In this document: positions 12,721-15,914 of the stretch, one piece after another
Layout of the letters: each line of letters opens with the position of its first letter
Position numbering within the stretch: position 1 is the first letter of the stretch
Assembly (NCBI RefSeq): GCF_030696805.1
Contig: NZ_JAUYRO010000112.1
Span: forward strand, 1-64,000
Length of the DNA: 64,000 nt
Direction: 5' to 3'
DNA from: Methyloversatilis sp.
GTDB taxonomy: Bacteria > Pseudomonadota > Gammaproteobacteria > Burkholderiales > Rhodocyclaceae
Made by a program: the position numbers and the translations under genes
The notes under the pieces: model-generated
What the model saw: the letters and a program-made list of their open reading frames with translations, nothing else
Told to the model about the DNA's origin: nothing
Databases searched by the model: none

Positions 12721-12973
12721 AAAATCGGTTGAAATCCGGACGCATCAGCCGCTCGTGCAACGGCTCCCCCAAAGTCGTCCGGCGCGAACGTGACCGGCCG
12801 CCTCGCTGCGTTACCCACGCCGCATCTGCGCCCCGATAGAACACCTACCCGCCGCAGGGCCTTTATCCGCGCGGCTCAGGGAAGGTATCCCCGCGCCGGA
12901 GCCTTGCCACGCTTGCCGGCGCAGCCGCCCACCAGGTAAGGCCGAGCCGGATTTTTGGCGCAAATCCTGTAAA

Positions 12974-13062: not shown

Positions 13063-14820
13063 ATGAAAAGAACTGCTATTGCCGCGCTCGTCCTCACCGC
13101 CTTCGCGCACAGCACCCTCGCGCATGCCGGTGTGACGGACGCCGACATCGTGAATGACGCCAAAACCACGGGTAACGTTCTTTCGTGGGGCATGGGAACC
13201 GAAGGCCAGCGTTTCAGCCCGCTCAAGCAGATCACCACCAAGAACATCAAGCGTCTGGTGCCGGCATGGTCTTATTCCTACGGTGGCGAAAAGCAGCGCG
13301 GCCAGGAAGCTCAGCCGCTGATCGTGAACGGCAAGATGTTCGTCACCGCCTCGTACTCGCGCCTGTTCGCACTCGATGCCAAGACCGGCAAGCGCCTGTG
13401 GATATACGAACACCGCCTGCCCGAGGGCATCATGCCCTGCTGCGACGTGATCAACCGCGGTGCAGCCGTATTCGACAATCTGGTCATTTTTGCCTCGCTT
13501 GATGCGCAGCTGATCGCGCTCGACCAGAACACCGGCAAGGTGGTGTGGAAGGAAAAGATCGACGACTACCAGGCCGGCTATTCGTCGTCCGCAGCCCCGA
13601 TCATCGCGGGTGGTCTGCTGCTGACCGGCGTGTCCGGCGGTGAATTCGGCGTCATCGGCCGCGTCGAAGCGCGCGACCCGAAGACCGGCAAGATGGTGTG
13701 GGTGCGTCCGACGATCGAAGGACACATGGGCTATACGTTCGATGCCGACGGCAACAAGACCGAAAACGGCATCAGCGGCACGACCAACGCAACGTGGCCG
13801 GGCGACCTGTGGAAGGTGGGCGGCGCGGCCACCTGGCTGGGCGGCACGTATGACTCGAAGACGGGTCTGGCCTACTTCGGTACCGGTAACCCGGCACCGT
13901 GGAACAGCCACCTGCGTCCGGGCGACAATCTGTTCTCGTGCTCGACGGTCGCGATCGACATCAAGACCGGTCAGATCAAGTGGCACTTCCAGGGCACGCC
14001 GAACGACGGCTGGGATTACGACGGCACGAACGAATTCGTCACCTTCGACATGAACGGCAAGCGCATGGGCGGCAAGGCTGACCGCAACGGCTTCTTCTAC
14101 GTGCTCGACGCCAACACAGGCAAGTTCGAGCGCGGCTTCCCGTTCGTGAAGGCACTGAACTGGGCCAAGGGACTCGACGAAAACGGCCGTCCGATATTCG
14201 ACGAGGCAAATCGTCCGGGCGACCCGGCAAAGAGCGCCGATGGCAAGAAGGGGGAATCGGTATTCACCACGCCGTCCTTCCTGGGCGGCAAGAACCAGAT
14301 GCCGATGGCCTACAGTCCGGACACCGGCCTGTTCTACGTGCCGTCCAACGAATGGGGCATGGAAATCTGGAACGAACCGATCTCCTACAAGAAGGGTGCT
14401 GCCTATCTGGGTGCCGGCTTCACGATCAAGACACTGGACGAGAAGGCCATCGGGGGCGACTACATCGGCGCGCTGCGTGCCGTCGATCCAAAGACCGGCA
14501 AGATCGTGTGGGAAGTGCGCAACAACGCCCCGTTGTGGGGTGGCGCGATGGTTACCCGCGGTGGCCTGGTGTTCTGGGGCACGCCGGAGGGCTACCTGAA
14601 GGCGGCTGACGCCAAGACCGGCAAGGAAGTGTGGTCCTTCCAGGTCGGCACCGGCATCGTGGCCCCCCCGATCACCTGGGACCAGGACGGCGAGCAGTAC
14701 ATCGCCGTGACGGCCGGCTGGGGCGGCGCAGTCCCGCTGTGGGGTGGTGACGTGGCCAAGAAGGTCGCCTACCTGAACCAGGGCGGCTCGATGTGGGTGT
14801 TCAAACTGCTGAAAGATTGA
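13063..14820 (+). CDS. PQQ-dependent alcohol dehydrogenase, PedH/ExaF-like (predicted lanthanide type)
   Basis: A periplasmic quinoprotein alcohol dehydrogenase of 585 aa oxidising primary alcohols with PQQ and a metal. ATG 13063 follows AGGAGA (13051-13056); the signal peptide is about 1-23 (ending LAHAG). The eight-bladed propeller carries the vicinal disulfide C126-C127 (GIMPCCDV), E194 (SGGEFG), N276 (FGTGNPAPW), catalytic D318 and, two residues on, D320 ([12 protein letters not shown]). That extra Asp is the hallmark of lanthanide enzymes (XoxF, ExaF, PedH); Ca-dependent ExaA/PedE has Ser and MxaF has Ala there. The [17 protein letters not shown] and [14 protein letters not shown] regions are much closer to ExaA/PedE/PedH than to methanol dehydrogenases. 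No cytochrome c gene is adjacent; a paralogous solute-binding gene follows. Family is firm; metal preference is inferred from D320. Confidence 0.93.
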
Positions 14821-14871
14821 TCCGGAAGATCTGAAGACTCCTCCTTGCGCCCCGCTGTTGGGGCGACCGTA

Positions 14872-14899
14872 ACCGGCGCCTCCTGGCGCCGGTTTTTTT
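14872..14899 (+). terminator. Intrinsic terminator after the alcohol dehydrogenase
   Basis: A 9-bp perfect stem ACCGGCGCC / GGCGCCGGT (14872-14880 and 14885-14893) with a TCCT loop is followed directly by seven Ts. It separates the dehydrogenase from the downstream solute-binding gene, so the two may be transcribed mostly independently. Confidence 0.9.
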
Positions 14900-15077
14900 C
14901 TTCACGGTCCGGCTTGCCGGCGCGCGTGCCGAGCGATCCGCCAGCCAGAACACCTTGCAAGCCGCGCTGATGCTGCGGAGCGGATGCCGGTTATTGCAAC
15001 CGATTCCCGTCTGCCGTGCAAAAATGCGGCCTCGCGGGAAACCATCCCCGCACACACAATACCTCTGGAGACCAGGA

Positions 15078-15914
15078 ATGAAGAACAGATTCACCGCGCT
15101 CATGCTGTGTGCCGTCATGTGGCTAGGCGCCTTCGCCGGCAGCGCATGGGCGCAGGGCCGCGACCTCGACGAAGTGATCAAGAGCGGCCAGATCAAGGTC
15201 GCGCTGTACAAGGAATTCGCCCCGTTCTCCGACGTCGCCACGAGCGGCATCGACGTTGACCTCGCCAGACTGCTGGCCGAACGGCTCGGAGTAAAGCTCG
15301 AAATCCTGTGGTTCTCGGCTGACGAGAACATGGACGATGACCTGCGCAACATGGTGTGGCGCGGAACGGTACTCGGCTACGGCCCGGCCGATGTCATGCT
15401 GCACGTACCCATCGACGCGACCTACACGGCACGTAACGACAAGGCCATGTTCTTCGCACCGTATTACCGCGAGAAGTTCGCCATCGCCCGCAACGTCGAG
15501 AAGATCGACAAGCTCGAGTCGCTCGATGCCTTCCGCACCCAGCGCATCGGCGTCGAAGTGGAAACCTACCCCGCCACGGTGCTGCTGTCCGCAGATGGCG
15601 GCGCCTACCGCAACAACGTCGGCCATTACAAATCGGCCGCCGAGGCGCTGACCGCAATGAAGAACGGCGAAGTCAGTGCCGTCATGGCCATGCAGAGCGA
15701 GCTGGAAGCCGGTCTGGCAGGGTCCAGAGGCTACGTCATTTCCGACGTGCCGCTGCCGCTGGTCAATCGCCGCCAGTGGGTGATCGGCCTCGCGGTGAAG
15801 TCAGGCAACGAAAAACTCGCCCATTCGCTGCAGGCCGCGATGAACAGCATTGCGGAAAAGGGCGAGCTGAAGGACGTCTTCAAGCGCCACGGGGTCGAGT
15901 ATCGCGCCCCCTGA
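15078..15914 (+). CDS. Periplasmic solute-binding protein (SBP_bac_3 type), quinoprotein-associated-like, copy 2
   Basis: A 278-aa exported binding protein, paralogue of the one at 4977. ATG 15078 sits just after CTGGAGACCAGGA; the signal peptide runs to about 26 (GAFAGSAWAQ). It shares with copy 1 the order IKSGQIKVALYKEFAPFSD, SGIDVDLARLLAERLGV, ENMDDDLRNMVWRG, GYGPADVMLHVPID, FFAPYYRE and the closing VIGLAVKSGNEKLAHSLQAA. No transporter genes are adjacent. Its place directly after a PQQ alcohol dehydrogenase matches the MxaJ/XoxJ-type pattern, in which such proteins assist maturation or cytochrome coupling; for this subfamily the role is inferred. It converges on the cupin gene. Confidence 0.86.
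   Translation: MKNRFTALMLCAVMWLGAFAGSAWAQGRDLDEVIKSGQIKVALYKEFAPFSDVATSGIDVDLARLLAERLGVKLEILWFSADENMDDDLRNMVWRGTVLGYGPADVMLHVPIDATYTARNDKAMFFAPYYREKFAIARNVEKIDKLESLDAFRTQRIGVEVETYPATVLLSADGGAYRNNVGHYKSAAEALTAMKNGEVSAVMAMQSELEAGLAGSRGYVISDVPLPLVNRRQWVIGLAVKSGNEKLAHSLQAAMNSIAEKGELKDVFKRHGVEYRAP

Follow-up and report, generated by a model that had tools for sequence, protein, structure and literature searches.

The PDB chains closest to the enzyme described here are those of PedH from Pseudomonas putida KT2440 (6zcw and 6zcv); according to a passage of PMC11845868, PedH in 6zcw binds Pr3+ via Glu199, Asn281, Asp323, and Asp325. In the genus Methyloversatilis, excerpts of a 2018 paper credit each strain with two ExaF/PedH enzymes plus calcium-type ExaA/Mdh2 (PMC6028718), and by that excerpted account the presence of lanthanide-type ExaF/PedH in Methyloversatilis is already published at the genus level. 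This report concerns a gene for a pyrroloquinoline quinone (PQQ)-dependent dehydrogenase at positions 13063 to 14820 of a 64,000-nucleotide stretch of Methyloversatilis sp. DNA (RefSeq assembly GCF_030696805.1, contig NZ_JAUYRO010000112.1, positions 1 to 64,000). The whole stretch is referred to as the window, and the gene and its product are called the window copy and the window protein.

Other literature on the genus touches this enzyme less directly. An ethanol dehydrogenase homolog, not equated with the window copy, was essential for oxidation of both C1 and C2 alcohols in Methyloversatilis universalis FAM5, as described in part of PMC5023235, a paper from which the words “lanthan-” and “rare earth” are absent. 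XoxF5 is the only Methyloversatilis enzyme among the rows shown in a table passage of PMC11845868. Titles and abstract openings of the papers listed for Methyloversatilis together with PedH, ExaF, or lanthanide gave no pointer to a purified Methyloversatilis PedH, which is weak evidence of absence.

The window protein groups with lanthanide-dependent PedH

As judged by sequence comparison, the window protein belongs, with a probability of about 0.9, to the ExaF/PedH group of lanthanide ethanol dehydrogenases and would act in the periplasm as a PQQ-dependent alcohol dehydrogenase. The protein scored 736 bits against NCBIfam model TIGR03075 (PQQ-dependent dehydrogenase, methanol/ethanol family; cut-off, 480), and Pfam detected a PQQ beta-propeller. 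In phmmer searches of PDB sequences the best matches were PedH chains 6zcv (817 bits) and 6zcw (809 bits), followed by ExaA (1flg, 652 bits) and the XoxF chains 4mae (377 bits) and 6dam (368 bits). Identity over aligned columns fell in the same order, from 62.1% for PedH and 55.6% for ExaA to 42.9% for XoxF2, 37.9% for XoxF5, and 35.2% for MxaF. Overall the protein is ethanol dehydrogenase-like, as described in a first-pass annotation of the raw sequence.

A phylogeny, which the first-pass annotation had proposed as a check, supported the same assignment. A total of 162 rows entered the tree. They comprised five PDB chains besides the window protein, the 80 named loci except where one was identical to another row, paralogs from the same genome, and the top-ranking loci from searches of 185 genomes of the class, 13 of the genus, and six reached through loci. 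Whole-genome searches supplied the best 30 matches each for the class and six-genome sets and at most the best 30 for the genus, and the tree is to be read as a sample. It was built by a quick method with support from the Shimodaira-Hasegawa-like approximate likelihood ratio test (SH-aLRT) only, carries a long-branch warning outside the PedH and ExaA clades, and does not include ExaF of Methylorubrum extorquens. One clade of 104 rows (SH-aLRT, 98) contained PedH and the window protein along with 102 further sequences. The adjoining ExaA clade (SH-aLRT, 100), with 1flg among its 7 rows, excluded the window protein, which groups with the experimentally lanthanide-dependent PedH and not with the calcium enzymes. 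The window protein also fell outside the XoxF/MxaF clade, and membership in either of those types was rejected on this placement. The nearest named relatives were from Methyloversatilis, with 93% identity in strain XJ19-49 and in a metagenome-assembled genome; in the class sample, matches of at least 59% identity were found in 7 of 185 genomes, the source genome included, one of them as two pieces.

The gene is intact. The frame on the forward strand has no internal stops, and although the mechanical open reading frame extends further 5' to position 12973, a ribosome-binding-like GAGGAGA 5' of the ATG at 13063 and a signal peptide-like N terminus make the latter the likely start. This N terminus suggests export to the periplasm. 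Against its nearest orthologs (L015 and L018), the window copy had nonsynonymous divergence (dN) of 0.038 to 0.039, synonymous divergence (dS) of 0.42 to 0.46, and dN/dS of about 0.08 to 0.10; against the PedH paralog in the same genome, dN was 0.105 and dS was 0.58, and dN/dS was 0.17 to 0.18 both for this pair and for ortholog L016. Because dN is well below dS in these comparisons, both PedH copies are under constraint, and the intact frame and low dN/dS rule out a pseudogene.

All four PedH metal ligands are conserved

The window protein aligns with PedH at every metal-ligand position, as E194, N276, D318, and D320 (Table 1), and the pair of aspartates on which the first-pass annotation had based its lanthanide reading is present as described. 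The residues it had given for comparison at the position two after the catalytic Asp (+2) were seen in the aligned PDB chains, with Ala in MxaF (1w6s), Ser in ExaA (1flg), and Asp in PedH (6zcw), XoxF2 (4mae), and XoxF5 (6dam). XoxF2 and XoxF5 thus resemble the window protein in the four ligand places with D-x-D but differ in overall identity (38 to 43%) and in clade. ExaA and its counterpart in the same genome (L003) belong to the same family and share the ethanol dehydrogenase body (52 to 56% identity), but have Ser instead of Asp at +2 and form their own clade. PedH shares with the window protein the four ligands, the adjacent Cys pair, and a clade. The pair, Cys126-Cys127, presumably forms the disulfide ring of methanol and ethanol quinoproteins.

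Conservation across the rows nearest to PedH by identity argues that D320 did not arise by chance. These 119 rows represent 104 distinct strings, or 98 genes once the same gene with different ends is merged. Asp occupied both motif places in 104/104 distinct rows, and the +2 Asp was found in 80/80 named relatives. With duplicates counted, Cys was found at the Cys126-Cys127 place in 119/119 rows and Asn at the N276 place in 118/119, with Gln in L062. A partial sequence (L106, 343 amino acids) was excluded from the tree and the counts; inspected separately, it reads D-Y-D. Rows of the ExaA group carried D-x-S (7/7), those of the MxaF group carried D-x-A (2/2), and D-x-D was present in all 22 rows nearest 6dam (6dam counted) and 4mae.

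TABLE 1 Features of the window and quinoprotein-related genes elsewhere in the same genome
Feature	Location	Strand	Basis or remark
PedH/ExaF-type PQQ-dependent alcohol dehydrogenase, predicted lanthanide-dependent	13063..14820	+	585 aa, stop codon included in span; TIGR03075, PDB match, tree
Putative Sec-type signal peptide, approximately residues 1-22	13063..13128	+	By eye: hydrophobic N terminus, end AHA-G
Adjacent Cys126-Cys127	13438..13443	+	Aligned with MxaF C103-C104
Putative metal ligand E194 (PedH E199)	13642..13644	+	Alignment
Putative metal ligand N276 (PedH N281)	13888..13890	+	Alignment
Putative catalytic base and metal ligand D318 (PedH D323)	14014..14016	+	Alignment; codon GAT
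Putative lanthanide-signature ligand D320 (PedH D325)	14020..14022	+	Alignment; codon GAC
Intrinsic terminator-like site	14871..14899	+	10-bp hairpin and run of 7 T
Extracellular solute-binding protein family 3, distantly MoxJ/XoxJ-like, candidate accessory protein	15075..15914	+	SBP_bac_3
PedF-type cytochrome c550	C1:40331-40705		208 bits (cut-off, 122)
Other PedH-type gene	C1:43307-44893		
ExaA-type gene (L003), calcium type	C1:47249-48943		D-x-S
MxaF-type gene	Contig C52		D-x-A
XoxF-like piece, 145 aa	Edge of contig C106 (L204, first 3 kb)		59% over 98 residues to XoxF5
Five further PQQ-dehydrogenase-like genes	Same genome		

Metal use, substrate, and alternative readings

In the proposed mechanism, a light lanthanide ion bound by E194, N276, D318, and D320 would polarize the C5 carbonyl of PQQ, D318 would accept the alcohol proton, and a hydride would pass to PQQ. 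Electrons would then leave via a c-type cytochrome as acceptor, probably a PedF-like c550 encoded elsewhere in the genome. This mechanism follows general knowledge of quinoprotein dehydrogenases.

Two points weigh against the ExaF/PedH reading. The D-x-D motif also occurred in 11 of the 27 rows outside the PedH, ExaA, XoxF, and MxaF groups, where the others read D-x-T (11 rows), D-x-S (2 rows), and G-x-D (3 rows, two of which, L140 and L146, are one gene). The motif by itself was therefore rejected as proof of lanthanide type, and is informative here because of clade placement. In addition, a passage of PMC11845868 reports that PedH appears able to coordinate Ca2+ if grown without rare earths, so lanthanide dependence may not be absolute. 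That report would suit a facultative PedH-like enzyme using lanthanide or calcium, in which D320 raises affinity without being strictly required, as would the 60 to 80% activity that a calcium-type PedE of Methylopila without the extra Asp retains at 10 mM lanthanides, according to part of PMC10409515. We consider such an enzyme unlikely here, since ExaF/PedH enzymes are described in PMC11845868, in the passage available, as better catalysts than calcium-type ExaA/PedE, and the conservation of Asp suggests a maintained metal preference.

A fully calcium-dependent ethanol dehydrogenase of the ExaA/PedE/Mdh2 type, with its +2 Asp acquired by convergence, would account for the 56% identity to ExaA and the ethanol dehydrogenase-like sequence overall. 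The first-pass annotation had named this outcome as contrary to its reading, and the tree rejects it, with the window protein outside the ExaA clade, L003 and its D-x-S inside that clade, and Asp in every PedH-group row examined; the idea is now highly improbable. As the genus is methylotrophic, the window enzyme could in practice be chiefly a methanol or aldehyde oxidase, and the M. universalis ethanol dehydrogenase homolog required for both C1 and C2 alcohols (PMC5023235, in part) lends this some weight. It also seems doubtful, as the highest affinity of ExaF/PedH is reported, in excerpts of PMC6028718, to be for ethanol, and the genome also has an MxaF-type gene as well as, at the end of a contig, a XoxF-like piece. 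The placement in the PedH clade and the four conserved ligands instead favor an ExaF/PedH enzyme whose metal is very probably a rare earth and which would oxidize multicarbon alcohols.

Two PedH-type copies in Methyloversatilis

The source genome (4.19 Mb in 123 contigs) encodes ten PQQ-dehydrogenase-like genes, after 14 matches were merged and a BamB-like match on contig C35 was excluded. Of the two PedH-type copies found in Methyloversatilis, the window copy is the second, and this genome also encodes a calcium-type ExaA/Mdh2 and an MxaF. Two PedH-type copies and a calcium-type ExaA/PedE/Mdh2 match the Methyloversatilis set of PMC6028718, and no difference from that set was seen in the part of the paper available. 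When best matches were placed by the tree, the other copy, on contig C1, was present in 13/13 genomes of the genus and the window copy in 11/13, the source genome included; among the best matches in these 13 genomes, the window copy was not found in G196 or G201. One match of window-copy rank in G201 lies 1.6 kb away from a XoxF gene and is probably a tandem XoxF. XoxF5-like genes are found in tandem in several relatives, which makes an assembly break at the XoxF-like piece on contig C106 probable.

Another Methyloversatilis quinoprotein group, about 38 to 40% identical to PedH, includes two paralogs about 75% identical to each other; the loci concerned are L203 (contig C71), L006 (contig C96), and an EHg5 tandem in L195. 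One paralog carries D-Y-D, in L006 and 9/9 orthologs examined, and the other carries D-Y-S, in L005 of the same genome and the EHg5 ortholog (2/2). The Asp/Ser switch seen between PedH and ExaA may thus have been repeated in this group, which may correspond to one of the divergent types that PMC6028718 names. A stretch of G201 (L202) contained a different gene.

Genomic surroundings of the window copy

The window copy stands apart from the exa/ped cluster, and the genes annotated around it are of other kinds. This position, ahead of a MoxJ-like binding-protein gene, differs from that of PedH in P. putida, which lies in the ped cluster. Neighbors common to the XJ19-49 and window loci encode RlmM, a DEAD-box helicase, the binding protein, a cupin, and PBP1C. 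Between the window copy and the binding-protein gene lies the terminator-like hairpin with its seven-T run, where transcription of the window copy probably stops, short of the binding-protein gene; the region 14840 to 14895 folds into two hairpins at -34.2 kcal/mol (z score, -4.53).

The binding protein scored 44 bits against TIGR03871 (cut-off, 212), a model with four matches in the genome, one above the cut-off. A MoxJ-like gene lies beside three of five named window-copy orthologs (L015, L017, and L018) and was not found in the available flanks of the other two (L016 and L019). Across related loci, a homolog (E values up to 1e-8) was found in the flank of at least 12 of 80, some flanks being short. 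On these counts, the idea that the MoxJ-like gene is a fixed partner was not borne out.

Near the other PedH copy are genes for ExaA, the PedF-type cytochrome, a quinoprotein relay metallohydrolase (TIGR04558), and a SoxYZ-like carrier (TIGR04557), as well as two that scored under the curated cut-offs, one for a sigma-54-type regulator and the other aldehyde ferredoxin oxidoreductase-like. At this locus (L095), the regulator, the aldehyde ferredoxin oxidoreductase-like gene, and a pyridine nucleotide-disulfide-type oxidoreductase gene stand beside the exa/ped cluster and perhaps serve the aldehyde step.

We tentatively suggest that the window copy is a specialized duplicate, although this is less probable than not, that, within Methyloversatilis, moved out of the exa/ped cluster in which the other PedH stayed with its cytochrome, relay, ExaA, and aldehyde ferredoxin oxidoreductase-like genes, gained its own transcript end, and in some species came to precede a divergent MoxJ-like gene. 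If so, the two copies could differ in their substrate, lanthanide preference, or electron acceptor.

Significance

The extra-Asp reading made from raw sequence was confirmed. With the window copy, a facultative methylotroph that has retained calcium-type enzymes gives a further example of predicted lanthanide-type alcohol oxidation. The finding is already published for the genus, most of whose genomes have kept both PedH copies.
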